Source: Bremerella sp. P1
GTDB taxonomy: Bacteria > Planctomycetota > Planctomycetia > Pirellulales > Pirellulaceae
Reading direction: 5' to 3'
Length of the DNA stretch: 64,000 bases
Assembly (NCBI RefSeq): GCF_028748185.1
Contig: NZ_CP118164.1
Span: 248,001-312,000 of the forward strand
A model generated the notes under the pieces. That model did no database searches and was not told where the DNA came from. It saw only the letters and a list, made by a program, of their open reading frames with translations. How positions within the stretch are numbered: the stretch's first letter is position 1; every line of letters begins with the position of its first letter. Positions 30,263 through 50,635 of the stretch are shown here, in pieces. A program made the position numbers and the translations under genes.

Positions 30263-31088
30263 ACTTTGCACCAACGGCCAATCAAAGTTCCCGGGGAATG
30301 GTCGGTTTGCAGTCTTAAGTGGAGAGTGGGGTTTACGAAGACTAGGGAGAAGGGGGTGAGCCTAGCCTTGAGACTCCGTGTTCTGAACAGACAGTCCACC
30401 TGGATTAGAGAGGAATGCTCGGATCAGGTAGTTCCATTAAAATCAGGGGTTGTATCAAATTCAATGAATTACCAGCATTCTAATTGCCCATTCTCGCCAT
30501 TTTGCCCATGCAACGCGTCAATTCCGAGCTAAGCGTTACGCTCTGTGGCTAAAAGAGGGCCTCCAGATCCACCCAATACTCTCTGCAACGACTTATTATT
30601 TCTGGGTTTACATCGCATTGCCGGCTCTCTCAGCCAGCCGTGACGGCAAAATAGGATACACAGGACAGATAGAGCCTTTGTCAGTTATAGCGACTTTACT
30701 GCCAAGTTGTTGCGCTTATGCCGTTGGACGGGGATACCCACACTCGCCAAGCCACACGATCAGCAAGGTTGTGCAGGTCATCAGCAATACCGCGAGTTGC
30801 CTAACCAGCCGCAACGGCGTCCTGGCTTCCCCAAAGAGGCGACTTCAAGATGGGCAGTCTGCGTCAACTTTTCCAGCCAATAAGAAGTAAACCTAGTGAT
30901 ATCCGGTACTTCCGTCAAACTTTTGATGGCCAGGAAACCGAATCCAATACGGACAACGCATCCGTTCAATTTCACACGGATATTGCCAACATCGCGAAAG
31001 ATCGTTGCCAACGGAATTCACGACACGTTGTACTTCACCCGCTTCCCAAACGCTTTGCGTCGGGAATTGAGTACAAGGAATGGGAAAC
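30263..31088. other. Long intergenic region upstream of divergent giant protein and porin genes
   Basis: 826 bases without a convincing gene. Short open frames are present, but none has a family signature or codon bias like its neighbours. It should hold the promoters of the cadherin gene (minus) and the porin (plus). An A/T-rich stretch near 30,420-30,480 is the best place for a promoter of the giant gene. I found no strong hairpin or repeat. Confidence 0.5.
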
Positions 31089-34112: not shown

Positions 34113-37100
34113 TTAGTCTTCTTCGCTGCCGAAAAATTGATCGACAGCCGAAACGTAGAAGCTCTCTTCAAACGTGTCCTGATCCCAATCGATCAGTCGC
34201 TCGCCTGGCAGGATGGTCGCGCTCATCAGGCCCTCGGCCGAATGCTCTAGACCAGCAACGTGTCCCAACTCGTGCAAGAGGACCGACAGAAGGTCGACCT
34301 TGCCGGAAGCCGCGGAAGTGCTCGATGCGAGCAAACGGCCGCTCTGGCTATCCAAGCTGAATTCAGACGAATCAAGCGGAGTCGAATCGACGAACCAGCC
34401 CCAACCGGCTGCGTCATGATCGAGATAGATCGTGTTTCCGATCGTCGACGCTAACTGACTACCTGGCAAGTCGACGATTTGAATGGTCACGGCGTTCGTG
34501 TCGCTGGTGATACTGGAGTTAATCACCACAGGCGGCAGGGCAGTGGTGATTACGTCAACGTCTTCGGCCAAGAGAGAATCTGCACCGCCAGCAGCGTTGA
34601 CATTCGATACGAGAATCGAGTTGCTCATCGCCGCCTGGAGCAATGCCGGAGACCAAACGAACCCGTTACTCACGCCGTCATAGGTATCACCAAAGGCCGT
34701 CTGGAAAAACGAGAACCCGCTCCCCAAAACATCGCCTGTCAAATCGAAGTCAATGAACGAATTGGAATTGCTATTTCCGACGGTGCTGATAAATACGCTG
34801 AAATCGGCGATGCCAACACGGCCATCGTCATTCAAGTCGTAAACCATCGGCAGCAAATGCACCGGAAGGTCCACGTCTGTTGTGGGGCTACCAATCACAC
34901 CAACGCCATCGACGGTCAACGACGCGCCTGTCATCGACGTGAGGAAGCTACTGAAATCGATCCCCAGTGTTCCACCAACCACAGGAGCATCCAGTCCATT
35001 GGCAACCGGCGTGAACAGAATCCTTCCCAGGCGGATACGCTCCCCTGAGTTCAAACTTACGCCTGTGGATGATACGCTGATCGTCGCAGTACCCGAACCA
35101 TTGTTTACGCCGGAACCCGACTCGGATGTGAAACCAGTATCAAAAACAATCGAGCTTGCTTGATACATGGATGGATCAAAGTTCAAAGTCGTCGAAGCGG
35201 CCGTGATGGTATCGCCGCCGGTACCATCAGGCGTGACCCAGACTTCCACCCAGAACGAATCCCATTCGCCAATTACTTCATCACTTTGCGGTCGGCTATC
35301 GACGATACTGTCGCCGCCGGTATCCGTCGCATCCTGCACCGCCGAGATCGTGAAGTTGGAAACATCACGCACGTCGACCGTGACCGTGGCAGTCGACTCC
35401 ATGCCATCGTCATCGATCGTGTAAGTAAACGTATCGGTACCAGTAAAGTTCGCCGCCGGCGTATACTGCACGTTGTCACCAGCCACCACAACCGTTCCGC
35501 CGGCTGCCGTGGCGTTGGATGCCAGGGTAATCAATACCGAAGAGTTCTCTTCGCCAGGGGCTCCCTTATCATCGTTCTTAAGAACCGGCAGGAGCGTGGC
35601 CGTATCTCGATCGGCCAGGAATACATCGTCGAATGCTTCGGGTTCGTCATTGACCGGAGCCACGGTCAGGACCACCGTGGCAGGCGTACCGAAGAGCCCG
35701 AAATTGTTCGCCACGTTGTACTGAAACGAAACGGTCCCGTTGAAATCTGCAGGGGGCGTAAACGTGACGTCGCCTGTCGCATGATCGACGGTCAGTTCAC
35801 CCACCGCTGGCTGAGACAAGAAGTTCAGCGTTCCGGGATCGAGCGAAGTTCCGGAATCGGTATCATTTGCCAACGGATTGAAGGTCACCGATTCGTCTTC
35901 ATTCAAGCCGACAGAATCCTGGTTCAATACCGGACGATTTGCCACGGTGACTTGAATCACCTGGTAGTCAAGCGAGCCTGTGATGATTTCGCCACCCAGG
36001 TCATTCGATACAGCCACGACAATGTTGTAGACGCCCGGCGTCAGTCCAGCACTCGCGTTGATTTGAAGCAAACCCGTGGAGCTATCGACCGAATAAACGA
36101 GCCCGTTAGGAGCGGTGGCAGGGATGTAGTGCTGTTGCGGATCGAAGTCGGACTCGTCGTAGAAAATCAGATCATCCCCATCCAGATTGGTAGCATTCAT
36201 CTGAAACGAATAGCTACCACCGGGAGTCATGGTGACATCAGGAATGAACGACAGAAAAGGATTCGAGCTGTAGTTGGCGTTGGGTGCGTACGTAACGTCA
36301 AACGACCGACTTAGTGTGTTGCCTTGCCCATCGGATACCGTAACGGTAATGGACTCCGTCCCCGATGCCCCATCAGGAATCTTCAATCGCAGGACACCAT
36401 TCTCCATGTCGATAAAGGTTGTCACCTCGTCCATGACGACATTCCACTGAGGCGTCGTGCCCGAACCGGTGTAGGTACCGCTGATCGATTCGCGGACGAC
36501 TTCCCCTTCGGTCAGAAATCCAAAGACGCTGTGCTGGAAATCTAAGTGCGGGGCAATCCCTTCCATGATGAAGAACTGCGAGTTGTTGCTATCGTCCACC
36601 GACTTGGCATACGACAAGATGCCGGTGCCGTTATGCCGCAGGTTGGGATTGTATTGATCGTCGAAGTTCGGGAGAGACGATCCGCCCGTTCCGTTTCCAT
36701 TCGGATCACCACCTTGTATCACAAAGCTTTCGTAAACTCGGTGAAACGTGATACCATCGTAGAAGCCACTTTCGGCCAGTTCGATGATTCGTGAAGTTGC
36801 CCGTCCGGCTTCCTTCTCGAACAGGTAAAACTCCATCGTCCCGTATCGGCTCGTGTAGATCCGCAGGCTTTTGTTGCCCTGCATCACCGTAGCGATAACG
36901 TCTCCTGACGAAGACGTCACGGTGTACGTCAACGGCTCGCCGGACGGAGAGTAGCCATCCAAGGCGATATGATACGACTGCCCCGAGATCAGCCCGGTTT
37001 GATCAGGGATCTCTTCAAAGTACAAGGGCTCGCCCTGGGGGATGGTGACGCCGGTGTAATCGAGAAGCTCTTCGATTTCGAGCACACCAACAACTCGCGT

Positions 37101-37580
37101 ACCGTCCGCGAATACCCAGGTGGGTAATTGGGTGATATTGTTATCGATCCCGATTTGATTCAGCGTGTGATTCGGATTGGTCACCTCGACGAACGGTAGA
37201 TCGTTGTACCCTTCGCCAAAGAGGCCTTTCTGACGGGTACAGTGCGGACACCAATCCGCTCCGAAAAAGATCGCTCCACTATCCGCAATCGCTTTGGCCA
37301 GGGCCTTCATGTCGACGTTGTCATAGGTGACACCGTCAACCGTTACGGACTCGCCCTCGAGTGCCAATGCCTCGCTGCCCATGGCCGCGTCGAGAAGCTG
37401 TCGCGATTCCAGCTGTTGGCCTTGAACCTTCCACTGGCTTCGACGTCGCTTGCCGGCTGAGCAGGGCGCAGGGCGGAGCCGATTCGCCCGCAACAGGATG
37501 GCAGCTAGAACCGAAACGGCCAGCAACAATCCGATCACAACGAAGGTGGCAATGAAGATAGTAGGATCAGCGACGGACAT
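34113..37580 (-). CDS. Thioredoxin-cyclophilin-Ig-dockerin-matrixin chimera, secreted
   Basis: 1,155 residues from ATG 37580. A hydrophobic helix is at 8-31 and LESRQLLDA at 57-65. A thioredoxin-like fold with ADWCPHC (CPHC at 111-114) and cis-Pro153 in QLPTW follows. A cyclophilin-type peptidyl-prolyl isomerase lies at about 246-390 (GFYDGITFHRVYESFVIQGG, NNSQFFIME, HSVFGFL). Ig/cadherin-like repeats follow (VNRPVLNQDSV-type, APVNDEPEAFDD). A cohesin-like block (EWDSFWVEVW) and dockerin EF-hands are at about 911-963. A matrixin-like zincin HELGHVAGLEH (1103-1113) with Met-turn M1119 comes last. The tail is DQDTFEESFYVSAVDQFFG. The frame stays open upstream to a TTG at 37667, but ATG 37580 starts directly before the helix. 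It may help fold or mature surface proteins. Confidence 0.88.
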   Translation of the reverse strand: MSVADPTIFIATFVVIGLLLAVSVLAAILLRANRLRPAPCSAGKRRRSQWKVQGQQLESRQLLDAAMGSEALALEGESVTVDGVTYDNVDMKALAKAIADSGAIFFGADWCPHCTRQKGLFGEGYNDLPFVEVTNPNHTLNQIGIDNNITQLPTWVFADGTRVVGVLEIEELLDYTGVTIPQGEPLYFEEIPDQTGLISGQSYHIALDGYSPSGEPLTYTVTSSSGDVIATVMQGNKSLRIYTSRYGTMEFYLFEKEAGRATSRIIELAESGFYDGITFHRVYESFVIQGGDPNGNGTGGSSLPNFDDQYNPNLRHNGTGILSYAKSVDDSNNSQFFIMEGIAPHLDFQHSVFGFLTEGEVVRESISGTYTGSGTTPQWNVVMDEVTTFIDMENGVLRLKIPDGASGTESITVTVSDGQGNTLSRSFDVTYAPNANYSSNPFLSFIPDVTMTPGGSYSFQMNATNLDGDDLIFYDESDFDPQQHYIPATAPNGLVYSVDSSTGLLQINASAGLTPGVYNIVVAVSNDLGGEIITGSLDYQVIQVTVANRPVLNQDSVGLNEDESVTFNPLANDTDSGTSLDPGTLNFLSQPAVGELTVDHATGDVTFTPPADFNGTVSFQYNVANNFGLFGTPATVVLTVAPVNDEPEAFDDVFLADRDTATLLPVLKNDDKGAPGEENSSVLITLASNATAAGGTVVVAGDNVQYTPAANFTGTDTFTYTIDDDGMESTATVTVDVRDVSNFTISAVQDATDTGGDSIVDSRPQSDEVIGEWDSFWVEVWVTPDGTGGDTITAASTTLNFDPSMYQASSIVFDTGFTSESGSGVNNGSGTATISVSSTGVSLNSGERIRLGRILFTPVANGLDAPVVGGTLGIDFSSFLTSMTGASLTVDGVGVIGSPTTDVDLPVHLLPMVYDLNDDGRVGIADFSVFISTVGNSNSNSFIDFDLTGDVLGSGFSFFQTAFGDTYDGVSNGFVWSPALLQAAMSNSILVSNVNAAGGADSLLAEDVDVITTALPPVVINSSITSDTNAVTIQIVDLPGSQLASTIGNTIYLDHDAAGWGWFVDSTPLDSSEFSLDSQSGRLLASSTSAASGKVDLLSVLLHELGHVAGLEHSAEGLMSATILPGERLIDWDQDTFEESFYVSAVDQFFGSEED

Positions 37581-37805
37581 AGATGACGGGTCACCAGTGG
37601 GATTTTGAGCAGGGGAAGCACTTAGTCCGACAGGCGCCAAGACAGTTAATCTAGTCAATTTACGCAAGCGCGGAGTCGAACTTCTATGGTAGTTGGGGCA
37701 GGGATACTTTCCAGTGAAGTTCCGCTTATAAACCCTCTAAGTAGACATTCCCTTAGTGCCTTGGACGCTCGACCGCCCGCTTGCGTTCCCGTTTTGCGCA
37801 TAAAA

Positions 37806-37837
37806 AAACGCGGAACCGCCAAGGCCGTTCCGCGTTT
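37806..37837 (-). terminator. Terminator of the DUF3467 gene
   Basis: AAACGCGGAAC opposite GTTCCGCGTTT, perfect 11-base stem, followed on the minus strand by a T run. It lies about 25 bases after the stop. Confidence 0.9.
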
Positions 37838-37859
37838 AGGTTTACGTACTTAATCGAGA

Positions 37860-38195
37860 CTATTCGGCCGGACGTTGGGCGGATGGAATCACTCGCTTCT
37901 GGATGTCCGTTTCGAGCGTACCGAAGGCAGCTTCATGACGCTGGACGGCCATGTGCAGAGCACCCAACATCCGCTTAGCGGTGTAATAGTTGAGGATGAT
38001 TCGCTGCTGGACCTTGATCTTTTCCTGCGACTGAACCATCGGTTGAGTATTCAAACCGAAGTCAATGATCAGCTCTTCTGGCGTGCCGGTCACGCGGCAG
38101 AAGTTAGCGTAACAAGCGATCGCGCCGGTTTCGTCCAATTCGACTTGCTTAGGTGCTGGGGCAGCTTGACCTGGGTTTTCAGGGGCGTCCGACAT
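37860..38195 (-). CDS. DUF3467 domain protein
   Basis: A 111-residue small soluble protein matching the DUF3467 pattern: YANFCRVTGTPEELIIDFGL, VQQRIILNYYTAKRMLGALH. The N-terminus is Pro/Ala-rich. Its function is not known. It lies 182 bases after the M50-HlyD gene and closes the five-gene minus-strand cluster, ending at a strong terminator. Confidence 0.85.
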   Translation of the reverse strand: MSDAPENPGQAAPAPKQVELDETGAIACYANFCRVTGTPEELIIDFGLNTQPMVQSQEKIKVQQRIILNYYTAKRMLGALHMAVQRHEAAFGTLETDIQKRVIPSAQRPAE

Positions 38196-38377
38196 GTAGA
38201 TTATCTCCTTAGGATTTAATGTTTACCGTGAAGGTATTGGGCTAGTTTAGTCAGGGCCATCGACTGTTCGAGATGGCCAATGCTTAGTTTGTCACATGAA
38301 TAAGTGGCGACAACCGGACCTAACCATCAAAACCGAAACAACTGGAAGAAAGATCGAGGCTTTGCGCAAGTTGGCGA

Positions 38378-40624
38378 CTACAGGTAGAAATGGAACGTTC
38401 GGGAAATGTATCGCCACAAGCGACTTCCCATCGGTTCCCACTGAACCCAGACTTTCGCCCGGCCTCGCATCCCCAGCTTCAATTCTTCCTCGACACCGTC
38501 CAAAGGAACTTGAGCCGGGAAGGTGGCACTCTGGGGACGAAGCCGTCCTGACTCCTGATCGGTAATGGCCGGCAGTTCGCCGCCTTGCTGGGTGCTGAGA
38601 GCCGGCGGAATGAACTCGACCTCTTTGCTACCCATCACAGCGATGCGTCCCTTGAACGTTCGCCCGGGAAACGCATCGAGCTTGATGGCGACTTCCTGAT
38701 CAGGATTCACCAATTCAATCTGATCCTGGTCGATGTAGAGCACGGCTTCCATGTCATCGGCGTTTCCAATTTGGCAAACGACGTCGCTCGTGGACAGGTT
38801 GGCTCCTTGGTTCTTCTCATCAAAGATCGAACCAGACCATTCCGGTAGCATGCCGTTATCAGCACTACGCTCTTTCTTATCGGGAACCGGGAACACGGTC
38901 CCATCAATCGGAGCAGGCACGTCGATCAATGCAACCTGCTGACGCTTCTTTTCGAGCTGTTGCTGAACCGACTTGAGCTGCTGAATGACTTCCAGATAAG
39001 TCTGTTCGACTTCACCACCTTCTTCGGCGCGAAGTCGTTGATTGTTGAGGGCATCGGAAAGCAGCTGCAGACGCTCTTCTTCGTTTTCCAGTTCGGAAAG
39101 CTCCAGAAGCAAGTCGAGGTTCGTGACTCGAGCCAGCTTGGTACCGCGAGTGACCTGCTGACCAGGCGTCACCAACATGCTTTCCAATTGACCTGGCACG
39201 ACCACGAAGACGCTTTCGGCGTTTCTCGGTTGCACTTCTACCGGGCACTTTACCCATTGGGGGACGGGAATGTACACGATTCCCGCGATCACCGCTGCCA
39301 CGACCGAGGCGGTGATCAAAACATTCTTCCGCTTCACCTGTGACATTCTCCCAGGGACATACAGGAACTTGCACAATTGAAAAATAGGCATGACCACCAA
39401 ACCGTAGATACCAGCAAGCGCGATCATCTGCCCAATGACCTGCAAGCCGTACGGCTTAAAGACCTGGTTCAAAAAGAGCATGATCGAGGCGGTCACGAAG
39501 AGCCGATAAACGTTCGACGCGACGGTGTAGAGGCCAAAAAAGAACTGGTTACGTTCTGGCAGAAATGGGTCGTCAGGAAGCTCCATCCCCAGACAATACT
39601 TCGACATGTAGCGATGCAGAACGCTGCTCGCTTTTTGACGCATGTTCGGAACTTCCATGATGTCCGACAGGATGTAGTAACCGTCGTAACGGAGCAGGGG
39701 GTTACCATTGAAGATCACCGTACTCACCGAACTGACGAACATCACCTGTAGCGCCAAGTGATTCAGCAAACCCGGTTCGCTAAACCACCAGATAAACGTC
39801 GCAATGCAGGCCAGGAAGACTTCAACGTACATCCCCGCCGCACCGATCGCCGCGCGATGCCACTTGTTAGGCAGCATCCACGAGTCGGAGACATTACAGT
39901 ACAGACACGGTGTCATCACCAGGAACATGACACCCATTTCATGGCATTCGCCGCCATACCGTTTACAAGCAAGTCCGTGGCCAAATTCGTGCAGCACCTT
40001 GGTTACGGCCAACACCGCACCCAACAGCAACCAGTTCGAGGGACCAAAGAACTCTTGAAACGACGGCAAACGACTGCGGAACACATCGTTCTGCACGGTC
40101 ACCAGTGTGACGGCCGCCGCACAAAACAGCAGCACCATGATCATCGCCGGAAACGTAAAGAACCAGCGTGTATACGGATTAAGCGCCGTTAGAAGACGAT
40201 CGGGATCAAACCCTTTGAAGCGGACGGCCAGGATGTTGGACATCAACTGGACAGTCTCTTTCCACTTCCGCTCGTCACGTCGGACTTTCAGCTGCCGACC
40301 TTGATCCATCGCCGTGGTGATCACAAGCCCGCTGCGATGCAAGGTTCCGATGAACTGCTGCAGGTCGGTGAAGCTGATCTTCTGTGGGGCGAACTCTTTC
40401 TCGAACTTCTCTTTGATCTCCTGTAGAGAAGTCTTGCCATCCAACATGTTCAGGATGGCGTATTCCTCTTCCTGGAAGCGGAAGTAGTTCAGCCCAATTG
40501 GTTCCTTCACAACCCAGTAACCACGGCCCTGGTAGGTATGCTGCCGGGCGGTGAGGTCTGGACGTGCACGCAGTGGCAGTGGACGACTGCTACTGGCAAC
40601 CAAACTGTCTTGAAGACTGACCAA
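38378..40624 (-). CDS. PqqD-like / M50 site-2-type protease / HlyD fusion membrane protein
   Basis: 748 residues. Residues 36-102 fold like PqqD, a winged-helix leader-peptide binder (YFRFQEEEYAILNMLDGK, IGTLHRSGLV). About residues 150-430 form a polytopic M50 protease: zinc site HEFGH at 212-216 and second site NGNPLLRYDGYY with D314, both intact. The C-terminal part, from about 440, has a TM helix, a biotinyl-lipoyl/coiled-coil section (YLEVIQQLKSVQQQLEKKRQ) and a barrel as in HlyD adaptors. YydH-like proteins in Firmicutes are the nearest named relatives I know. It sits 52 bases after the HlyD gene, so they are co-transcribed. It may clip leader peptides while docking to an envelope channel. 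Confidence 0.85.
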   Translation of the reverse strand: MVSLQDSLVASSSRPLPLRARPDLTARQHTYQGRGYWVVKEPIGLNYFRFQEEEYAILNMLDGKTSLQEIKEKFEKEFAPQKISFTDLQQFIGTLHRSGLVITTAMDQGRQLKVRRDERKWKETVQLMSNILAVRFKGFDPDRLLTALNPYTRWFFTFPAMIMVLLFCAAAVTLVTVQNDVFRSRLPSFQEFFGPSNWLLLGAVLAVTKVLHEFGHGLACKRYGGECHEMGVMFLVMTPCLYCNVSDSWMLPNKWHRAAIGAAGMYVEVFLACIATFIWWFSEPGLLNHLALQVMFVSSVSTVIFNGNPLLRYDGYYILSDIMEVPNMRQKASSVLHRYMSKYCLGMELPDDPFLPERNQFFFGLYTVASNVYRLFVTASIMLFLNQVFKPYGLQVIGQMIALAGIYGLVVMPIFQLCKFLYVPGRMSQVKRKNVLITASVVAAVIAGIVYIPVPQWVKCPVEVQPRNAESVFVVVPGQLESMLVTPGQQVTRGTKLARVTNLDLLLELSELENEEERLQLLSDALNNQRLRAEEGGEVEQTYLEVIQQLKSVQQQLEKKRQQVALIDVPAPIDGTVFPVPDKKERSADNGMLPEWSGSIFDEKNQGANLSTSDVVCQIGNADDMEAVLYIDQDQIELVNPDQEVAIKLDAFPGRTFKGRIAVMGSKEVEFIPPALSTQQGGELPAITDQESGRLRPQSATFPAQVPLDGVEEELKLGMRGRAKVWVQWEPMGSRLWRYISRTFHFYL

Positions 40625-40675
40625 TGCGAAATCTCGGGGCGGGGAAGGGGGTTCGTAAGCTTATCGTGGCAACGC

Positions 40676-41611
40676 TTATTTGCGATTGCCCTCAACGTTA
40701 GCGCTGAGTGTCGATGGACGATCCAGGTGAAGGGTCACATCGGCCACATCCCCAGGGAAGAGCATCTTCGAATTGGCCGCTGGTTCGTTCTTCACTTCGG
40801 CGGTGAAATCGAAATTCCCGGTAGCATCGATTTCAGGGCTGGCGAAAACGATCGTCCCTTGAAGTTCGGTCGGTCCGCCAGGCGTTTCAGCCGTGACAGT
40901 GACCGGCTTGCCAATCACCATACTTGGCGTGTACTGGTCCGCGTTTAGCGAACCATCGACCTTCAGGCGTTTCAGGCCAATCACACGCATCAAAGGATCA
41001 CCTGGACGGACCCATTCACCTTCGTGACGGTACTTCTGAACCACAATCCCTTCGATCGGGGACGTAATCTTGCACTTGTCGATGATCATTTCGGCCGCTT
41101 CCATTTCGGCTCGTGCTTCTCCGGCAGTCATACCGGCGACCTTGAAGTTCATGTCAGCCTGTTCGGCTTGCAGCAAGGCTTTTTCCCATTGCAGCTGGGC
41201 TTTGCGAATGGTGATCTCGGCGATCGCACCTTTGACGCCTTTGTTGGCGGCTTCCAGTTGGTCGAACTCGGCCTTGGAGACTTCGGCTGCCTTGGCGGCG
41301 TATTTGATGTCGACCTTATTGGTGGCTTGCTCGGTGGCCTTGTCCCATTTCAGCTTGGCGATCTCGCGTTGTTTGATCGGCAGGGAATCATCGATTTGAG
41401 CGATCTGAGTTCCGACCGTCACGTAGTCGCCTCGCTCGACGGGAATCTTCATCAGCACGCCGGTTTCCTGAGCGGGAACATTGACTTCGTCGATCAACGA
41501 CACCAGGCAGCGTTCGACGACAACCTGGCCAGGCGTCGCGGACGTTTGAGCGGAAACGTGTCCGGCAATCAGTAGCAAAGTGGCAACCGATAGAATCACA
41601 GACTTGGACAT
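40676..41611 (-). CDS. HlyD-type periplasmic adaptor
   Basis: 311 residues from ATG 41611, with a signal peptide MSKSVILSVATLLLIAGHVS and an AQ cleavage site. The lipoyl half-motifs (VPAQETGVLMKIPVERGDYV; SPIEGIVVQKYRHEGEWV) flank a long helical hairpin (about 75-175). A beta-barrel and membrane-proximal domain follow, the layout of RND/ABC efflux adaptor subunits. GAGG about nine bases upstream of 41611 supports the start. No inner-membrane transporter or TolC-like gene is adjacent; the M50-HlyD protein follows immediately. Confidence 0.87.
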   Translation of the reverse strand: MSKSVILSVATLLLIAGHVSAQTSATPGQVVVERCLVSLIDEVNVPAQETGVLMKIPVERGDYVTVGTQIAQIDDSLPIKQREIAKLKWDKATEQATNKVDIKYAAKAAEVSKAEFDQLEAANKGVKGAIAEITIRKAQLQWEKALLQAEQADMNFKVAGMTAGEARAEMEAAEMIIDKCKITSPIEGIVVQKYRHEGEWVRPGDPLMRVIGLKRLKVDGSLNADQYTPSMVIGKPVTVTAETPGGPTELQGTIVFASPEIDATGNFDFTAEVKNEPAANSKMLFPGDVADVTLHLDRPSTLSANVEGNRK

Positions 41612-41698
41612 GGGTTTCTTACCTCGTGCGATGATGGATCCTGCACTCTCATTGCAGGCCGATAAAGCATGGAATGAACGCATCGAATCGATGCCGTG

Positions 41699-43762
41699 TT
41701 AAAACAAAACTCGCGATTCGACGAATTCAAACAGCTCGTGGAACCAGGTGTAGCCCAGCGGAGCCGTTCCGCAGTGGACCTTAGCGGTTGCCGTGGCACC
41801 CGCTCGTAGATGCTGAATATCTTGCTTGTCGATCGCCACTTTCAGTTTGACGATCTGACCTTCTTCCTCGTCCGGTTGAGCGAGGCGTTGAATCTCGGTG
41901 ACGGTGCCGGTGAGCTGCCGACCAGGGTCACTGGCCATGATATAGGTCACCTCCAGGGCTTCTGAGTCTTGCTGGTGCTCCAAAGCGTACTGGATGTGCT
42001 GAATGCGTTTTTCCGGCATGCGGATTTCCAGGATCCAGTCCTGCGTCGGATCGATGATAGTCATCAGCACCTGGCCCGGCTGAACGGGACGCTGCATCAG
42101 ATTGTCCCGCACGTCCCAAGTCACAATCTCGCCATTAATCGGGCTGGTGACATCGAGGCGAGCCATCTTCTCTTCAATGAGTGCGACCTGTTCGTCCAGG
42201 TGTTCGTACTTCTGACGAGCCTGGCCGAGGTCGATGGTCAACTGCGTTGCTTCCGCCGCATTTCGCATCACTTCCGGACGACGCTTACGGAACTCGAGTG
42301 CCTGAATGGTCGACAAGATCTTTTCACGATCGCCGGTGTACTGCTTGTACTGCCGCTCGAGCTCGGTGTTTCGCAGACGGGCAACCATCTGGCCTTGCTG
42401 GACCGGATCGCCATGGTCGACAGGGACTTCAATTACTTCGCCTTCGACACTGACAAACACTTCGCGCTGGACAACCGGCGCGAGCGTTGCGGCACCGGCG
42501 ACTTTGAATGGAGCCGGAATCAAAAACAGAGCGGCAATAATCGCCGCAGCCGCGGCAACCGCTAAAACGGTTTTGGGCAAATTACGAGCGGTGACCAAGA
42601 CCTTCGACTTACCCAGCAAGCGCCAAACTGGCGTCAGCGGAATCGAGTTGTAGTCGATCGCATTGGCCAACGCACGGCTGCTGTGCTCGGAGATCAGTTC
42701 GACCCCTTTAGAGAACTCCTCCTGCTGCGAGCTGTCTTCAATCTGCTCGACAACCAGGGCACCGAGGATCTCGCCTTGGTATTGGCGTTCTTCTTCACCC
42801 TCTTCCCGCTTCATGTTGTCGGTCGCATGTTCCGGACGACGCAGCGGAATGACGGCAATAGTCTTGGTGTGCGATTCATCGACATAGTCGTGGACCGCCG
42901 CTTCGAGTTGTGGGGACAGGTCTTCGGTCTGTCCGCTGAACCAGAATGGTTCGCCTGTTTCAATGACGCGCGAGGCCAGCTTGCCCAGCAGTTGCACCTG
43001 GGTCGACCGCGAGTCGAACACATCTTGTCCGCTGACGGCTTCGACCTTCCAGCGGCCGCGACGCAAGACAACCGAAACGCGGTCGCAGCCGATCAAACGC
43101 CGACCTTCGTTGGCGATCGTATAGGCCGTTTGACGCAGGTCCAGGTTTTCGTGAACCGCGCGGCTGAACTGTTCGATCTTCGACCAAAGCGACTGGCGAT
43201 CGGAGAAGTCGCGTAGTTTTCGTGTCTTAAACCAGTCGGTTGCCAGCCCGCACATCTGCTCCAGAAATCGGAGATAGCCGCGTTGGCTATTGGGGGCCGA
43301 GTTCGGTCGCTGGAAGATCTCGATGACCCCTTCGACCTTGTCTTCAACCTGAATGGGGGCGACGACCAACAATTGGTTGGTCGGGTTACCAGCCGAGTTC
43401 TCTTCGGCGCCGCCCGACTGCGGTGCCAGTAACTGGGCTTCGGAACCCTTGAACATCGATTCGATCAAACGCAGGTGTCGAATACCTTCGTCGCTCTTGG
43501 GATCGACCAGGCCGCGGGCAAGATTGATTTGGTAAATGAGCTGTGGCCGGCGTTGCTCGTCGTAGATCCAGGCAGCACCACCAACGGCAGCCAAAGCGGA
43601 AACCACTTTGGGCAAGACTTCCTTGAAATAATCCTCTGGAGGGACATCCCGTTTGGAAAGCTGGGCAATCTCCTGAATCAGACCTCGAATCTGCTTTTTA
43701 GTGCTTTCGAGGGTCTCGGGATTCACGGACGAGGGCTCTGTGGACATGCCGGGACTATTCAT
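41699..43762 (-). CDS. GAF-GAF-TM-HlyD fusion protein
   Basis: 687 residues. Two GAF-like domains occupy about 40-180 and 205-370 (for example VVSALAAVGGAAWIYDEQ; RRLIGCDRVSVVLRRG). A single hydrophobic helix lies at 398-416 (VLAVAAAAAIIAALFLI). The C-terminus is a HlyD/lipoyl adaptor (VEGEVIEVPVDHGDPVQQGQ; DVTSPINGEIVTWD) with a coiled-coil hairpin and barrel. The cytoplasmic GAF part could sense a ligand and set the state of the adaptor across the membrane. It has no enzyme domain. It is 87 bases upstream of the HlyD gene. Two Met codons close together (1 and 6) are both possible starts. Confidence 0.85.
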   Translation of the reverse strand: MNSPGMSTEPSSVNPETLESTKKQIRGLIQEIAQLSKRDVPPEDYFKEVLPKVVSALAAVGGAAWIYDEQRRPQLIYQINLARGLVDPKSDEGIRHLRLIESMFKGSEAQLLAPQSGGAEENSAGNPTNQLLVVAPIQVEDKVEGVIEIFQRPNSAPNSQRGYLRFLEQMCGLATDWFKTRKLRDFSDRQSLWSKIEQFSRAVHENLDLRQTAYTIANEGRRLIGCDRVSVVLRRGRWKVEAVSGQDVFDSRSTQVQLLGKLASRVIETGEPFWFSGQTEDLSPQLEAAVHDYVDESHTKTIAVIPLRRPEHATDNMKREEGEEERQYQGEILGALVVEQIEDSSQQEEFSKGVELISEHSSRALANAIDYNSIPLTPVWRLLGKSKVLVTARNLPKTVLAVAAAAAIIAALFLIPAPFKVAGAATLAPVVQREVFVSVEGEVIEVPVDHGDPVQQGQMVARLRNTELERQYKQYTGDREKILSTIQALEFRKRRPEVMRNAAEATQLTIDLGQARQKYEHLDEQVALIEEKMARLDVTSPINGEIVTWDVRDNLMQRPVQPGQVLMTIIDPTQDWILEIRMPEKRIQHIQYALEHQQDSEALEVTYIMASDPGRQLTGTVTEIQRLAQPDEEEGQIVKLKVAIDKQDIQHLRAGATATAKVHCGTAPLGYTWFHELFEFVESRVLF

Positions 43763-44080
43763 AATGGGAATTTAAGGTTAGAGGCCGATCGATTCGCGAT
43801 CGCAAAATCCTACGTCTCACCATAACAAGGGAGGTGAAAATCGAAAATCTTGAAAGCTGAAAAGGTGTCAACGAGGGAAGCCTGGTGGCGGGATGTAAGG
43901 GTTGCACGGGTCGTATCGTCGAAGAACTCTACACGACCCGCCGGTCGTTTGTTCACTATCTGACAAGAAGTTACGGTAAGAAACCTTACAAGCAGTGCTG
44001 CCATTTAGATAATAAAACGCAACGTTCGACGGACCAGTGGGTGACTTCGTTCCATCTGTCTCGAAACTGCATCATTCTGG
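43763..44080. other. Intergenic region between SecA-like and GAF-HlyD genes
   Basis: 318 bases. It contains an 8-base inverted repeat CGGGTCGT/ACGACCCG (43906-43939) but no T run, so termination of the SecA-like gene is uncertain. It could also carry a promoter for the downstream cluster. Confidence 0.5.
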
Positions 44081-46102
44081 TTAATCTGGCGAATCCAGAT
44101 AAGGGTCCTGGCCCATTTCGCGATGCATCTTCTTGCGCTGTTTCTCGTGATAGAGCAGAACCTTGCGGTCGCTGAAGTGCTTCTTCTCGATCTTGCGCTG
44201 GGCTCGACGGAAGAGCTTCGAATAGCCTGGCAACTCGCCCAGCCGCTCTTCTCCATAGGCGACCAGCTTCTTGTAGCGTGACGGCCCCAGGCCAACCAGC
44301 AAACAATCGTCATCCAAGGCCATGAACTGCCGCGTACTGCCGGGGTCTCCCTGACGACCACAACGCCCAACCAACTGGCGGTCGATTCGAGCCGAGTCGT
44401 GCAGCTCCGTACAAATGACGTGAAGCCCACCTAATTCGTGGACACCATCTCCCAACTTGATGTCGGTACCGCGACCGGCCATGTTCGTCGCGACGGTTAC
44501 TTTTCCTGGCTGCCCGGCACGAGAAACGATGTCGGCTTCGACGGCAACCTGGTGAGCATTGAGGACTTCGTGTTCGATGCCTTGCTCTTCTAACAGCTTA
44601 GAAAGATGCTCACTCTTTTCGATCGTACGCGTACCAACCAGCACAGGTCGTCCTTGCGAATGGATCTCGCGAATCTCATCCACAATCGCTGCCCACTTCG
44701 CATCGCCATTTCCGAACACACGATCGGGCCAAAGTTTTCGCTGCGGGATGCGGTTGGTCGGACACTTAATCACATTTAGCTTATAAATCTTCTTGAATTC
44801 CCCTTTGGAACTCGAGGCCGTACCGGTCATTCCGCCCAGGTGCCGGTAGCGTAAGAAGAGGTCCTGAACCGTGATTCGGGCGGCTTGCCCCGTGGCGACC
44901 GTCACCTCAACACCTTCTTTGGCTTCAATCGCCTGATGGATGCCGTAGCTCCACTTGCGGCCTTCCGCGATACGGCCTGTCGACTCGTCGACGATCACGA
45001 CTTCCCCATCTCGGATGACATAGTGCTGTCCGCTGTGGAAGTCGCGTTTCACCTTGATGGCGCGTTCGACATAGTCGTACAGATCAACCAGTCCGACCGT
45101 ATCCAACAGCTTTGGCTTGGGGATCTGCCGGACCAGCAATCGCCCCGTAACGGTCAGCTCGACCGACTTCTTGTCATGGTCGTATTCGTAATGGTGATCT
45201 TCCTCGAATTCCGCTTCGCTCTTGGCTGCCCATTGATGGCAAGCCACCGCGACTTTTTCCGCCTCGCCAGGGATTGCGCTGATCACCAACGGCGTTCGGG
45301 CGTCGTCGATCAAAACACTGTCCGCTTCGTCCACGAGAGCAAAGAAGTGCTCTCGTTGAACAGGCTCTTCACTTTTCTCGGATTTGCCCGCTAGCAGCGG
45401 CCCCAGCACGCCAAGGCCTTGTTCCCGTGTTTGACGGATCAGCAGCCGATCTCGCAGGAAGTCGAACCCAAATTCCTTGGAAGTCCCATAAGTAATGTCA
45501 CACGCATAAGCTTTTCGCCGGTCTGGCGAGGACATCTGGGATTCGATCACGCCGACACTCATCCCCAACATCTTATAGATGGGCATCATCAGCTCGGCAT
45601 CACGAGCGGCCAGGTAGTCGTTCACCGTGGCCACATGCACTCCCTTGCCAGGAAGCGCGTAAAGATAGGTTGGCAGGGTCGCGGTAAGCGTTTTCCCTTC
45701 ACCGGTCTCCATCTCGGCGATGGAACCATTGAACATGATCATCCCGCCGATCAGCTGCACCTCGTAATGGCGCATATTCAAAGTGCGAGCGCCAGCGATG
45801 CGGACCAACGCAAATGCCTCAGGCAGCAGCTTGTGCAGCGTTTCGCCACTCTTGGCCCGGTGTCGCAGGCCCAGACTGTATTTACGCAGGTCGCGATCCG
45901 AGAGGTCTTTCAGTTGTTCTTCGAAGCGATCGATCAACGGCAACTTCGCCACAAAGCGTGCGAGGCCCGAGCGTGTTACCTGCGAATAGGCCGAGCCCAA
46001 TGGATTCACACGAAACTTGCGAGGAGCGCCCCGTTTCGGAGCTTCCGGCTTGTTCGTCTCTTCCGCCTGGGGTGCTTCCAAGGTCTGTTGATTCGTATCC
46101 AA
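44081..46102 (-). CDS. Short SecA-like translocase ATPase
   Basis: 673 residues against about 850-1,200 for housekeeping SecA. The helicase core is complete: Walker A METGEGKT (131-138), VDEAD (257-261) with IDDARTPLVIS, TRTIEKSE and the motif VI variant QLVGRCGRQGD (normally QLRGRSGRQGD). It has the preprotein-crosslinking insert and a short helical end (KIEKKHFSDRKVLLYHEKQR). It lacks most of the C-terminal scaffold and wing domains and the zinc tail. It is thus an accessory, SecA2-like enzyme. It heads the minus-strand cluster of HlyD and M50 proteins, which suggests a dedicated export role. The upstream ATG is at 46102. Confidence 0.88.
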   Translation of the reverse strand: MDTNQQTLEAPQAEETNKPEAPKRGAPRKFRVNPLGSAYSQVTRSGLARFVAKLPLIDRFEEQLKDLSDRDLRKYSLGLRHRAKSGETLHKLLPEAFALVRIAGARTLNMRHYEVQLIGGMIMFNGSIAEMETGEGKTLTATLPTYLYALPGKGVHVATVNDYLAARDAELMMPIYKMLGMSVGVIESQMSSPDRRKAYACDITYGTSKEFGFDFLRDRLLIRQTREQGLGVLGPLLAGKSEKSEEPVQREHFFALVDEADSVLIDDARTPLVISAIPGEAEKVAVACHQWAAKSEAEFEEDHHYEYDHDKKSVELTVTGRLLVRQIPKPKLLDTVGLVDLYDYVERAIKVKRDFHSGQHYVIRDGEVVIVDESTGRIAEGRKWSYGIHQAIEAKEGVEVTVATGQAARITVQDLFLRYRHLGGMTGTASSSKGEFKKIYKLNVIKCPTNRIPQRKLWPDRVFGNGDAKWAAIVDEIREIHSQGRPVLVGTRTIEKSEHLSKLLEEQGIEHEVLNAHQVAVEADIVSRAGQPGKVTVATNMAGRGTDIKLGDGVHELGGLHVICTELHDSARIDRQLVGRCGRQGDPGSTRQFMALDDDCLLVGLGPSRYKKLVAYGEERLGELPGYSKLFRRAQRKIEKKHFSDRKVLLYHEKQRKKMHREMGQDPYLDSPD

Positions 46103-46642
46103 ACTAATATGATTCCCGGAGGTGTGCTGCCACTACGGTCGATGGGGGCGACATTCTAATCGTTGCCCTCGTTAGATTTTAGTATGAAAGACAAGGCTTT
46201 CCGTTCCCAATATTAGGTAAGGTGATTCCTAAGATTTGCAGAGCTTGATCAGTTCGACTTCCATTACAACCCGTTTCACCGGCCTCATCCGTTAAACTCT
46301 CCGCAGACCACCCATCTTCTCAATCTGACTCGTTTCTAGTTAGAGAATTCCGTTTATACGGGTTGCACGTTGCTTTTTGCTTAACCGGCACACGCCTGAC
46401 GGCCGACATTCCTAATACGTCCGGAATAATCGTACGCGGACCGTTCGAGCGCAGGACACTAAGGTCCTGACAACAGAAACCATTCCGCCCGATCAACTTG
46501 GCCCCTTAAGTATCCAAGTTTGTCGTTGGCTATTCGATTTTGGATGTCCATCAGACGCAAGCGGTAGCTCTTGTAACTCCTTCCGTTATTCGGAACGAGG
46601 CAGGGCCTTGGGAGCGACAGCATTAGTTTGCGAGCACACAAC
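46103..46642. other. Divergent promoter region of SecA-like and BBP7 genes
   Basis: 540 bases without a gene. I see an imperfect dyad ATTCC-taatacgtcc-GGAAT near 46410 and A/T-rich stretches that may hold the -10 elements. No RNA gene or repeat is apparent. Confidence 0.5.
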
Positions 46643-48094
46643 ATGAAGCTTAACTACTCCACCCTAGCTTTCTCGATCGCGGCCGTATTACTCGGCGGCG
46701 GTCGATCCTTTGCCCAAGAGGGTTACGCTCCGATGGGATCCCCATATCCTGCCGGTGCTCCTGCTCCCTATGATCCTACCGGAATGCCACCAGCCGGGAT
46801 GCCACCAGGGTACGCACCACAAGCGATGATGGGTGCTCCAGGTCCCATGGGACCAATGGCTGCCCCAGGCCCAATGATGGGTGGCCCAGCTCCTTACGCT
46901 TATATGGCTGCGGCAAATGCCAACGGTCAACCGGCGCCCGGCATGGAGTATGGCGGACCGATTGATGGTTCGATGTACGAACCAGCTGGCAATTACGTTC
47001 AATACGAAAACGTTGCCGGCGGTGCCTGCAACGATTGCGGCGACGGCTGTGCTCTTCCGCCTCGTGCTTACGGAAGCTTCGACAGTTTGCTCGTTTGGCG
47101 TCACGGCGGTAACTACCCTGCTATCCTGACTACCAGCGATCCGGCTGACGAAGGCGTTCTCGGTGCTCCTACCACGAGTGTCCTGTTCGGCGATGGCTAC
47201 GAATCAGGCGACGCCGGCATCGGCGGCCGTATCACCATCGGCCTGTGGCTGGACGACTATCAAAACTGGAGTGCTGGCGGTCGCATCCTGGCACTGGAAG
47301 AAGAAGGGGCTACCTACAGCACGACTTCCGATGCGTTCTCAACGCTGGCCTTCCCGTTCTATAACACGAACACCGGTATGCAGGACTCGGTTGTTGTGGC
47401 CTTGCCTGGTTCCGGTACGAATGCTGCCGACAACACGACCGTCAATCTGAACAACGAAAACTCGCTGTACATGGGCGACATCTTCGTTACCAAGCACATT
47501 CATACCAATCACGGTAATCGCTGGGACTTCGTTACCGGTTACAGCTACGCTAAGCTCGAAGACAGTTTCTCGATCAGTGCTCAGTACACCAACCAAGATA
47601 CGGGTGGTTCGGTAGCCGTCGGCGACGTGGTTGCCTACACCGACAGCTTCGCGGCTATCAACGAATTCCACGGCGGCCAGCTCGGTCTGATTGCAGAATT
47701 CCAAGACGGCCCATTCAGCTGGCGTGCGATGGGTAAGATCAGCCTCGGTGGTATGAAGCAAGAGGCAACGATCTCTGGCTTGACGACCGTCAACGGTGCC
47801 TTCTCCAGCAACAACGGTATCTACGCTCGCAGCACGAACTCAGGTAGTTACAGCCGCGATCAATTCGCTTACATCCCTGAAGCGAACGTCGACATGATCT
47901 ACGCTTACAACTGCAACCTCGACTTCAAGCTGGGTGCCACCTTCGTTTACTTCAGCGACGTGGCAACCGGAGCGACCTTGATCAATCCGAACATCGACCC
48001 AAGTGTGCTCAACCCAACCGATCCTCAGTTCAACTTCATTGAACAGGACTTCTGGGTTTTGGGCATGACCTTCGGTATGGAATACCACTACTAA
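46643..48094 (+). CDS. BBP7-type outer-membrane barrel protein
   Basis: About 483 residues. The signal peptide MKLNYSTLAFSIAAVLLGGG to SFAQ is followed by a Pro/Met/Gly-rich low-complexity stretch with repeats of GMPPG/APGPM and a Cys triplet (GGACNDCGDGCALPP). The barrel resembles BBP7 (planctomycete DUF1551): FDSLLVWRHGG, GGRITIGLWLDDYQN, WDFVTGYSYAKLEDSF, and terminal FGMEYHY. ATG 46643 is chosen over a TTG at 46628. It sits alone, convergent with the dockerin gene across a shared terminator. Likely a surface-exposed structural barrel. Confidence 0.85.
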   Translation: MKLNYSTLAFSIAAVLLGGGRSFAQEGYAPMGSPYPAGAPAPYDPTGMPPAGMPPGYAPQAMMGAPGPMGPMAAPGPMMGGPAPYAYMAAANANGQPAPGMEYGGPIDGSMYEPAGNYVQYENVAGGACNDCGDGCALPPRAYGSFDSLLVWRHGGNYPAILTTSDPADEGVLGAPTTSVLFGDGYESGDAGIGGRITIGLWLDDYQNWSAGGRILALEEEGATYSTTSDAFSTLAFPFYNTNTGMQDSVVVALPGSGTNAADNTTVNLNNENSLYMGDIFVTKHIHTNHGNRWDFVTGYSYAKLEDSFSISAQYTNQDTGGSVAVGDVVAYTDSFAAINEFHGGQLGLIAEFQDGPFSWRAMGKISLGGMKQEATISGLTTVNGAFSSNNGIYARSTNSGSYSRDQFAYIPEANVDMIYAYNCNLDFKLGATFVYFSDVATGATLINPNIDPSVLNPTDPQFNFIEQDFWVLGMTFGMEYHY

Positions 48095-48121
48095 ACCGAA
48101 GCCAAGTCGTCCAAGAAACAA

Positions 48122-48152
48122 AAAGAGCCGGTCCATCAGGATCGGCTCTTTT
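48122..48152. terminator. Bidirectional terminator
   Basis: AAAGAGCCG opposite CGGCTCTTT, with T runs on one side and A runs on the other, between the convergent BBP7 and dockerin-protein genes. Confidence 0.88.
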
Positions 48153-48175
48153 ATTGTTTCTTGCCTGGCAGAAGA

Positions 48176-50635
48176 TTACAAGGCGGCGAACGCAGCGTCG
48201 ATTGCGGCAGTCATGTTCGTCATGATCTCCTCACCGGCCCCGTTAATACGAACGATCATGCCGTCAGGTCCATTGGCAACGACCATGTAGCCAGGCGTCG
48301 AGGTCGAAAAAGCCTGAACAACAAGGACGGGGTCGTCGAGTCCGTCGACGCTTATCTCAAAGGCAATCTGACTTGCCCCCGTTTCAGCGTCGAAGTACGA
48401 AAGATCGGACCGAACTTGAACCAGGTTTTCCCAACCCATGTCGACGGCATACCATTCCAGCGAATCCAAACCGCCCGTATTTGAGAAGGCCAGCGTGATG
48501 CTGTCTTCGGTATTCGAGGCGATGGCATCACCCAAACCGATGTACTGGTAATCGCGACCGATGTAACCGAAGTTCAATCCGGTATACGTTCCTGGTTCGC
48601 CACCGCCAACCTGGATATCTTCGATCGTGCTACCCGACAGAGTGAATCCACCGGTCGTGGTCAATCCCTTGCGGGTAAAGGCCGGATCAGTGATGCGGAC
48701 CGAATAAGTTCCTTCGTCGAAACCGGCAAAGCTATAAAAACCGGATGCATCAGTAACCGAGGTTGCGACAACCGATCCGCCATCATCCAGCAGTTCGATC
48801 GTCACGCCGCCAATTCGCTTCTCTGGGCTGGCGTTGGTATCGGCATTTTCGTCAACGACACCGTCGTTGTCGACATCGAAGTAGACGACACCGGTAAGCA
48901 GGCTGTCAAACAGCGTCTTGAAGACAATCGTGCCGGTAGTGATCTGATCTCCGCCGTCACTGACCTTATACGTAATCGTTTCCACCAGGCCCGGAATATC
49001 CGATTCGTAGGTGAACTCACCGGTTGGATTGTCGTTCTCGTCCAGGAAAGCCGTGAAGGTACCCTGTAGGTCCGACGGGGTCAGTTCGTCACCATTTTCA
49101 TCGCAAAAAGTGATGAAGGTTGGAACGTCAGAAGGCTCACCCGGTGTAACATTATCCATCACATTAATCGGGTCCGTAGGAACGCCTGCTTCCACGTCAA
49201 CTTCAAGTGGATCCGGATCAATAACGACTTCCTGGTCGACTTCCGTGATTGAGATAAAGACGGTAGCTTCGGTTTCACCGGTTGGATTATTCACCAAATC
49301 GGTGTCGTTAACCGTGTAAGTAAAGATATCGGAAATGCCACCAACGCCGGTAGGCACCTGGTAAAGCAGGACCTGGTGCGACATGATTCCTTCATCAGTG
49401 ATTGCCTGCACGCTTTGGGCATTATCTAGAACCATTACGGTGCCTTCGGCCGGCGTGGAGACATCGATGATCTCGAAGCGAGAACGCGGCGCTGCGACTG
49501 GATCGAGATTACCATCCAAGTCATTTACGAGGACATCCAGAGCATAATACTGAATACCACCGATAGTCACGACTGGAGGATCATTATCCCCACCAGCTTC
49601 GGTCTCGAGGTAGTCTTCCACGACTTCGTAGGAGTCGAAGTTCGCCCCAGCAACTGGGTCAGCCATGATATCGAGCGAGACGGTACCGCCAGTCCAACGC
49701 GAGATTTCAGCTGTTGACGAACCTTCGAAGAAGGTGGCGTTCACGTTTGCATCGTTGAAGACTTCACCGTTTCGAGCCGTATTATTGAACGAGCTCACCA
49801 GGTCGTCTGGATCGGCACTTTGCGGATTGTCGGCGACCACGACGCTGAAATCGACAGTCCCTTCGGCAACGGTCGTAAATGTAAGCGTCGCAACCAATCG
49901 ACCTAGTGCTACATCAGTCACCCCACTGGCTTGTGATTGACCGCCGATGAACCGCAGTGTGTTCGGCTCGGCATAGTCGATGAAGTCCTGTGCACCGTTT
50001 AACGCACCATAGGGCGTAACATTATTGGGGGTGTCGCCCGTATTTTCGGTAAACCCTGTCCCCAAAACGATGCCTGTAGCCGGGTCTAGCGTCAGGAGCG
50101 ATGCATCGAAACTGATGTCGACATAGACCGCGTCGATGCCGGATGGGGTGGTGGAGGTATCTTTAACCCACACCTGGAGCTCGAAGCTCTCATTCAAATC
50201 CGCTTGGCCGGTCTGCGTTTCATCGACATTGCCACCGGTGGTGATCAGGCGGAGATTCACGTCGGCACTGAACGTGTCATCGGCAAGTTCCCCTTCCAGC
50301 GACAAAGCGTCCATCGCGGAAAGCAGGTCGCGGTTGGTCAAGCGACCGTCATTGTCGACGTCGAGATAAAGGGTTTGTTCCCCTTCCAGCAGGCTGCGGG
50401 CAACCGTCTGTTTCGTCTGCAAATTCGAGAGCAGCGTATCGACGTCCATTTGGTCGAACACGCCGTCGGCGTTGACATCGTGCGGCATGTAGTCGTTATG
50501 GACGGCGGAAAGCACATCCCCCGCCAGCATAGATCGAGACTCCAACGGTTCCATGCGGCGAATCGCTCGCTGACGTTTGGCTCGCTTGTTTACTTTGGAG
50601 GGAACGCGGTGCTGGCGGCTCTTGTTCTTTTTCAT
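48176..50635 (-). CDS. Secreted LEPR-XLL, dockerin, cohesin-like and SdrD-B protein
   Basis: 819 residues. The basic leader (MKKNKSRQHRVPSKVNKRAK) ends in RRMEPLESRSMLAGD, a near-canonical LEPR-XLL sequence. EF-hands of the dockerin type are near the N-terminus (HDVNADGVFDQMDVD, LDVDNDGRLTNRDLL). A cohesin-like sandwich follows (VYVDISFDASLLTLDP, RLVATLTFTTVAEG). Then come cadherin-like VFISITEVDQEV-type parts and a C-terminal SdrD-B-like domain (GVVYFDVDNDGVVDENADT, YSFAGFDEGTYSVRI). ATG 50635 has no strong ribosome-binding site. Unlike its neighbours it has no protease segment. It is probably a surface scaffold. Confidence 0.85.
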   Translation of the reverse strand: MKKNKSRQHRVPSKVNKRAKRQRAIRRMEPLESRSMLAGDVLSAVHNDYMPHDVNADGVFDQMDVDTLLSNLQTKQTVARSLLEGEQTLYLDVDNDGRLTNRDLLSAMDALSLEGELADDTFSADVNLRLITTGGNVDETQTGQADLNESFELQVWVKDTSTTPSGIDAVYVDISFDASLLTLDPATGIVLGTGFTENTGDTPNNVTPYGALNGAQDFIDYAEPNTLRFIGGQSQASGVTDVALGRLVATLTFTTVAEGTVDFSVVVADNPQSADPDDLVSSFNNTARNGEVFNDANVNATFFEGSSTAEISRWTGGTVSLDIMADPVAGANFDSYEVVEDYLETEAGGDNDPPVVTIGGIQYYALDVLVNDLDGNLDPVAAPRSRFEIIDVSTPAEGTVMVLDNAQSVQAITDEGIMSHQVLLYQVPTGVGGISDIFTYTVNDTDLVNNPTGETEATVFISITEVDQEVVIDPDPLEVDVEAGVPTDPINVMDNVTPGEPSDVPTFITFCDENGDELTPSDLQGTFTAFLDENDNPTGEFTYESDIPGLVETITYKVSDGGDQITTGTIVFKTLFDSLLTGVVYFDVDNDGVVDENADTNASPEKRIGGVTIELLDDGGSVVATSVTDASGFYSFAGFDEGTYSVRITDPAFTRKGLTTTGGFTLSGSTIEDIQVGGGEPGTYTGLNFGYIGRDYQYIGLGDAIASNTEDSITLAFSNTGGLDSLEWYAVDMGWENLVQVRSDLSYFDAETGASQIAFEISVDGLDDPVLVVQAFSTSTPGYMVVANGPDGMIVRINGAGEEIMTNMTAAIDAAFAAL

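Follow-up and report, generated by a model that had tools for sequence, protein, structure and literature searches.

Consistent joint occurrence of LEPR-XLL leader proteins and a SecA-M50-HlyD gene cluster: a putative export and processing system of Planctomycetota and proteobacterial plasmids

Background

The LEPR-XLL or Planc_extracel leader (PF07595; NF012209), with the consensus RRLxxExLExRxLLA, goes back to Studholme et al. 2004 and has been proposed since then as a novel export signal (both as quoted in PMC8567305). Many of the largest planctomycete proteins bear such leaders; 52 LEPR-XLL genes are reported from Tuwongella immobilis, where 8 of the 10 longest proteins carry the leader (PMC8567305). 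Kamneva, Poudel and Ward (2015) described a secondary locus of SecA_DEAD, HlyD, M50 and GAF proteins, in which SecA was proposed as the ATPase and the M50 protein as the membrane part, the role of the locus being left unknown (PMC4452313). Leader removal is attributed to the daptide protein MpaP, a fusion of an RRE domain with a site-2 protease (PMC10036551). The present analysis concerns a cluster of five minus-strand genes at positions 37860-46102 of a 64,000-nucleotide stretch of Bremerella sp. P1 (NZ_CP118164.1, positions 248,001 to 312,000; hereafter the window), which lies among genes for large proteins with leaders of the LEPR-XLL type.

The window is part of a single-contig genome of 6.96 Mb, whose host is a planctomycete as judged from its relatives and protein families. 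The cluster falls within the definition of Kamneva et al., with a SecA_DEAD protein devoid of the wing-scaffold part encoded beside M50, HlyD and GAF-HlyD proteins; the first-pass annotation of this DNA, which had proposed a dedicated export system, is corrected in that the locus was published in 2015. No link between LEPR-XLL leaders and a SecA-M50-HlyD machine was found in searches of open-access literature, in which the locus has, as far as can be seen, lacked a role since 2015. Cluster and leader were each known before; because both turn up together so consistently, the one probably serves the other, and the pairing gives leader and machine each a likely partner.

Results

Distribution in Planctomycetota

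The M50 protein of the cluster was found in 46 of 196 Planctomycetota genomes. Leaders were detected with a custom profile of 39 leaders (A3), whose seeds include those of the window genome (G000), G085, G210 and G227. The profile was run on 44 of the 46 M50-positive genomes (all except G001 and G146, two genomes from the same family as the window) and on 44 of the 150 M50-negative ones, a set that is not random, genomes with PF07595 hits having been deliberately included. A genuine N-terminal leader is present in 28 of the 44 M50-positive and in 1 of the 44 M50-negative genomes (p 2e-10; this and all other p values given here are uncorrected for phylogeny), and the values become 24/40 and 1/44 when the genomes that seeded the profile are removed. 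At E 0.5, A3 gives some match in 37/44 positives and 29/44 negatives. The best match was inspected in 30 positives, 28 of which (all but G110 and G179) proved genuine, and in 14 negatives, of which G178 alone did; genomes with uninspected best matches, seven positives (E 0.0995-0.458) and 15 negatives (E 0.097-0.447), were counted as leaderless. Among the rejected M50-negative matches, those of G057, G171 and others are internal or antisense. G175 was counted as genuine, its motif lying 266 residues from the upstream stop with a methionine some 35 residues before the motif. The M50-positive genomes without a leader are G061, G044, G060, G063, G068, G088, G110, G118, G120, G124, G150, G168, G179, G183, G187 and G198.

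PF07595 alone was tried as a leader detector, proved too insensitive and too noisy, and was replaced by A3. At E 0.02 it matched 26 of the 196 genomes, 12 of them M50-positive and 14 M50-negative. Only G178 among these negatives has a real N-terminal leader, the matches of the other 13 being internal, antisense or devoid of a start codon; the match in the M50-positive G110 is likewise internal and not a leader.

Among the M50-positive genomes, the presence of leaders follows that of a shortened SecA. Short SecA was found in 28 of the 44 M50-positive genomes, and leaders occur in 26 of these 28 vs 2 of the 16 without it (p 1e-7), the leader calls having preceded the SecA search. The SecA frames of eleven loci in other genomes were read directly (nine short, two canonical) and the rest were assigned by match extent and frame length. 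G178 and G179 each have a single SecA, of the canonical kind and ending in a zinc tail. A long canonical-type SecA frame was also seen upstream of a DUF3467, GAF-HlyD, HlyD and M50 set in G317 (L263, contig C515), a genome in which no short SecA was detected.

A second sample comprised 108 genomes of the window's class, with leader matches taken at a threshold of E <=0.01 without one-by-one inspection. Leader matches occur in 80 of 98 genomes with short SecA vs 3 of 10 without (p 0.001), where 98 is an upper figure that includes the uncertain G026, G288, G305 and G312; removal of these four gives 77/94 vs 3/10 (p 0.001), and removal of the 13 genomes already present in the first sample 71/86 vs 3/9 (p 0.003). 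Within one family (f18), leaders are present at equal thresholds in 11 of 19 genomes with short SecA vs 1 of 8 without (p 0.04), or in 14 of 19 vs 1 of 8 with the addition of three leaders that were verified at a less strict threshold (p 0.008). Two of the f18 genomes without short SecA (G268, G311) have no M50 protein at all, and G276, G294, G297 and G304 carry only lower-scoring M50 copies (best 373-500 bits vs 598 in G061 and 738 in G279). In the single-contig G311, M50, short SecA and leaders are all absent together. G061, also a single contig, has one M50 copy and lacks both short SecA and leaders, which are present together in G160 and G206 of the same genus.

Operon linkage on proteobacterial plasmids

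The best 80 M50 loci of the contig search all belong to planctomycetes or metagenome bins, and other phyla were sampled through plasmids. A tblastn search with the M50 protein matched 80 plasmid records, of which 20 loci were read. The adjacent large gene had a readable start at 16 of them (the exceptions being Pseudohalocynthiibacter, Ensifer, Indioceanicola and Rhizobium), and a leader is present in 15 of these 16; the Phyllobacterium locus, read at the large-gene start, has none. The operon linkage spans Alpha-, Beta- and Gammaproteobacteria and takes two layouts. Type A consists of a leader giant, DUF3467, HlyD/GAF-HlyD, M50 and SecA, sometimes with HlyD and TolC, and is represented by Pseudosulfitobacter, Methylosinus, Mesorhizobium, Pontibrevibacter, Alisedimentitalea (no annotated DUF3467) and Thalassospira (no annotated SecA). 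Its leaders read FEPRVLLSAD, LEPRVLLNAD, LEPRLLLAAD, IEPRILLSAD, LEPRLLLSAD and MEPRVLLSAD. Type B consists of a leader giant, TolC, an adaptor, HlyD and M50, with no SecA, as in Azospirillum, Niveispirillum, Variovorax, Burkholderia anthina, Cupriavidus, Kosakonia and an E. coli plasmid. Here the leaders read LESRQLFDGA, LEPRFMFDAA (twice), LEPRMMFDAA, LEARYMFDAA, LEPRVVYDAS, LEPRLLYDAA and LEPRMLFDGA. At the Tistrella locus the leader, LEPRMMFDAA, belongs to a gene some 4 kb downstream. At two loci (L063, L056) the open frame extends upstream of the annotated start; the leader lies in this extension, and candidate start codons precede it.

A tight form of the leader motif occurs at the plasmid loci within the first 130 residues of 15 of 992 open frames, all of them candidate substrates, and not once in 326,018 later residues; the pattern was derived from these same leaders, and the figures demonstrate its specificity rather than discovery. 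An independent check is provided by NF012209, whose 17-bit cut-off is passed by all six type A giants scanned, two of which carry an LEPR-XLL protein annotation in their own records. Among the seven type B giants scanned (those of Variovorax and Tistrella were left out), six score below threshold at 12.4-16.2 bits and the E. coli giant gives no match.

As side observations, the E. coli plasmid NZ_CP081687.1 (L057) holds the SecA-less form beside a giant immunoglobulin (Ig)-like protein with the leader LESRQLFDGA, the M50 query matches 18 Escherichia and 8 Citrobacter plasmid records at E <=1e-5, and several SecA-less operons (L147, L155, L157, L160) have genes nearby whose annotation is tail fiber protein.

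Organisation of the window locus

The five genes are intact open reading frames on the minus strand, and their order of transcription, as read in the first-pass annotation, is confirmed together with their domain families. The first encodes the SecA-like ATPase (44081-46102), which has a DEAD motor, a preprotein clamp, a second motor domain and a single long helix at its C-terminus and lacks the C-terminal part of SecA. It is followed by a GAF-GAF-HlyD adaptor (41699-43762), in which a hydrophobic segment was read by eye between the GAF and HlyD parts, an HlyD/RND-type periplasmic adaptor (40676-41683) with a hydrophobic, signal-peptide-like N-terminus, a fusion of an RRE (PqqD-like) domain, a site-2 protease and an HlyD adaptor (38378-40624; hereafter the M50 fusion), and a DUF3467 protein assigned by family match (37860-38195). 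The earlier remark that the cluster has no ABC (ATP-binding cassette) transporter and no TolC-like gene holds in its first part for the eight genes of the interval 34113-50635 that were scanned, an ABC partner elsewhere not having been searched for. Its second part needs qualification: TolC is part of the operons of several proteobacterial relatives, and one or more TolC-type proteins are encoded elsewhere in the window genome, as is a canonical SecA (C1:1244158-1245393).

Five relatives, from two genera (G001, G006, G007; G146, G254), keep the order SecA, GAF-HlyD, HlyD, M50, DUF3467 and leader-bearing protein. On the other flank, four of them have two further leader genes; G006, whose stretch breaks off there, has one. 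The stretch read of a sixth relative, G184, shows GAF-HlyD, HlyD and M50 only. The window genome has a second GAF-HlyD, HlyD and M50 set (G000:C1:1612000-1630000, L179), with no SecA in the stretch read, adjoined by a 3327-residue frame with the leader LEPRVVLAAD. Near 80 planctomycete M50 loci, many of them on short contigs, GAF-HlyD was counted 54 times, HlyD 53, DUF3467 17 and SecA 9, so that the machine genes need not lie together. The single-contig relative G014 has 15 matches to the M50 fusion, which suggests a family expansion.

The fusion of a PqqD-like domain to an intact site-2 protease and an HlyD adaptor, proposed earlier from the sequence, agrees with the alignment and with the predicted model. 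The HExxH motif and the Asp of the protease are invariant in the alignment, the active site being H212, E213, H216 and D314 in the numbering of the first aligned sequence. An RRE fold, its domain taken as residues 1-105, lies N-terminal to the protease in both sequence and model, and the model as a whole is predicted to comprise a leader-binding-type RRE fold, the site-2 protease and a MacA-like adaptor. The daptide MpaP model NF041824 aligns to residues 28-413 with E 1e-54 and 185.9 bits, its cut-off being 300. Membrane-fusion (HlyD) adaptor domains in the locus were confirmed by family scan and model.

In SecA, the wing, the two-helix finger and the C-terminal tail engage SecYEG. The SecA-like protein of the window retains the ATPase motifs TGEGKT, DEAD/DEVD, AGRGTDI and GRxxRQG along with the preprotein clamp. 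Its predicted model (predicted local distance difference test score, pLDDT, 78.3) matches SecA over residues 41-673, with 45% identity over 597 aligned residues to the clostridial SecA2 structure 6sxh. In the sequence alignment with the B. subtilis chain 1m6n (802 residues) the match stops at residue 604, and only 132 residues follow AGRGTDI vs 365 and 440 in two canonical SecAs with a zinc tail; from these two features the SecYEG-engaging parts are judged to be missing.

Candidate substrates in the window genome

The leaders consist of a basic stretch followed by E-x-L-E-x-R-x-L-L-A-x-D near the protein start. The first-pass annotation had assigned such a leader, with little or no classical signal core, to five of six large proteins: five proteins of the window bear a basic stretch and an LExR-type motif, the leader of the sixth lies outside the window, and the hydrophobic core is absent in four of the five, which sets them apart from HlyD and the porins nearby; the cyclophilin protein is the one that differs. 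This protein (34113-37667, minus strand, 1184 residues) is encoded on the same strand 192 bases downstream of the DUF3467 gene and is a candidate substrate or accessory factor. Its LEPR-type leader (about 37380-37451) is preceded by a strong hydrophobic segment kept in five relatives (L275-L278, L280), and its domains are cyclophilin, cadherin-like and weak thioredoxin- and matrixin-like ones; it may assist the system in folding or processing instead of being simply a substrate. The other candidate substrates are encoded at 48176-50635 (minus; LESRSMLAGD, leader about 50510-50584), at 51149-53092 (plus; LEGREMLNAT, about 51188-51259), at 53181-55883 (plus; LESRLALSAV, recognised by eye with no profile match) and at 21587-30274 (minus; a cadherin/Ig giant with LEIRDLLAAN, about 30134-30211). 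The sixth gene (56229-63998, minus) is part of a 4726-residue frame with LEKRELLASD about 6 kb past the window end.

PF07595 gives 16 matches at E <=10 in the window genome, 14 of them LEPR-type leaders, and the genes at 51149 and 53181 with the giant beside the second M50 copy raise the number to at least 17. The curated PF07595 cut-off of 25.5 bits is reached by no window leader (best 22.0 bits); one gene elsewhere in the genome passes it (26.1 bits with its neighbours). NF012209 (17 bits) matched none of the three window leaders scanned (48176, 51149, 53181).

Discussion

Proposed mechanism and alternative explanations

The constant leader partner is the RRE-protease-adaptor protein with further adaptors, which a SecA-like motor joins in many Planctomycetota and in type A; type B of Proteobacteria lacks SecA, and the constant core is therefore the M50-adaptor set. 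We infer leader binding, cleavage, the energy source, the route, export and independence from SecYEG as follows. On the cytoplasmic side, the RRE domain of the M50 fusion would bind the leader, and the SecA-like ATPase, where present, would grip the unfolded chain and feed it. The site-2 protease would remove the leader at the membrane, and the adaptor part of the fusion, with GAF-HlyD and HlyD, would guide the chain across the periplasm to an outer-membrane channel, which may be TolC in many proteobacterial operons and a TolC-family protein or a porin in the window genome. This whole mechanism, in which LEPR-XLL-tagged surface proteins have a dedicated system for their recognition, cutting and export, is given a probability of roughly 0.5. 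The further proposal is put forward tentatively: the RRE domain of a site-2 protease-adaptor may read a mostly core-less leader and a stripped SecA-like motor drive the chain along a SecYEG-independent route, taken by many of the largest surface proteins of both Planctomycetota and Proteobacteria; proteobacterial plasmids would carry a sister form of the system that lacks SecA.

The earlier proposal that the leader proteins are handled by the cluster is supported by operon adjacency, by genome co-occurrence and, more weakly, by parallel absence in one family, and it is highly likely that leader proteins and machine work together. An indirect association, in which large complex genomes hold both traits by shared ancestry or transfer with no joint work, would draw on statistics made without phylogenetic correction and on the position of most planctomycete leader genes away from the cluster. 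It is rendered very improbable by the operon linkage across three proteobacterial classes, the contrast within f18 at either threshold and the joint absence of all three components from G311. Several facts nevertheless weigh against a dedicated SecA-driven system. The survey bears out the anticipated association in the contrast between M50-positive and M50-negative genomes and departs from it in the 16 of 44 genomes that carry the cluster without a leader, as far as the profile shows, 14 of which also lack short SecA. SecA, moreover, is not universal, being absent from the TolC-bearing proteobacterial form.

This SecA-less form, in which leader giants, M50, adaptors and TolC have no annotated ATPase of their own, favours another route: the leader proteins would cross through SecYEG with canonical SecA, also encoded in the window genome, and the M50-HlyD set would then cut off the leader and hand the chain on to the outer-membrane channel, with the SecA-like protein as a helper. 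This is the more serious of the competing explanations, though an unlikely one given that four of the five leaders in the window are core-less and that leaders track short SecA in Planctomycetota. The cluster might instead process or release leader proteins without exporting them, the protease cutting a membrane-held N-terminus and the adaptors sensing or regulating. Site-2 protease substrates usually have a hydrophobic segment, and such a segment is conserved ahead of the leader in the adjacent cyclophilin protein; the GAF domains also suggest regulation, as in Kamneva et al. (PMC4452313). Three adaptor domains, an ATPase motor and TolC in several proteobacterial operons fit transport better, and processing alone is considered improbable.

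The pairing makes the question of surface-protein export open to direct genetic tests. If the proposed export system is real, leader recognition in the style of ribosomally synthesised and post-translationally modified peptides (RiPPs) extends to giant surface proteins, and the locus suggests what a SecA motor can do without its SecY-engaging parts.

Comparison with known systems

The locus of Kamneva et al. shares with the present one the same genes, the loss of the SecA wing-scaffold and an occurrence in phyla that include Planctomycetes and Proteobacteria (PMC4452313). According to that paper, Methylobacterium extorquens AM1 is one carrier of the four-gene operon. A term search of the accessible text of that paper returned no mention of LEPR, DUF3467 or a leader; the leader link, the RRE fold, DUF3467 and the SecA-less form are added here. 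The LEPR-XLL leader is the same tag as that on the candidate substrates, but no export machine is named for it in the accessible part of PMC8567305. Type I secretion and tripartite efflux (MacA, MexA, HlyD) have similar adaptor folds, and TolC occurs in several proteobacterial relatives of the locus; unlike in type I secretion, the scanned locus genes include no ABC transporter and the proposed signal is N-terminal. A case taken up as possibly related (PMC2761928) was an ordinary ABC-linked bacteriocin, as far as the accessible text goes, and was dropped. Accessory SecA2 resembles the SecA-like protein in its motor and clamp and differs from it in that the window protein has lost the C-terminal part and is encoded with M50 and adaptors. 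MpaP, like the M50 fusion, has an RRE domain followed by a site-2 protease in one chain, and its leader has a conserved LE-containing motif (PMC10036551). Its substrates are short peptides, whereas the M50 fusion has an added adaptor and its candidate substrates are large proteins.

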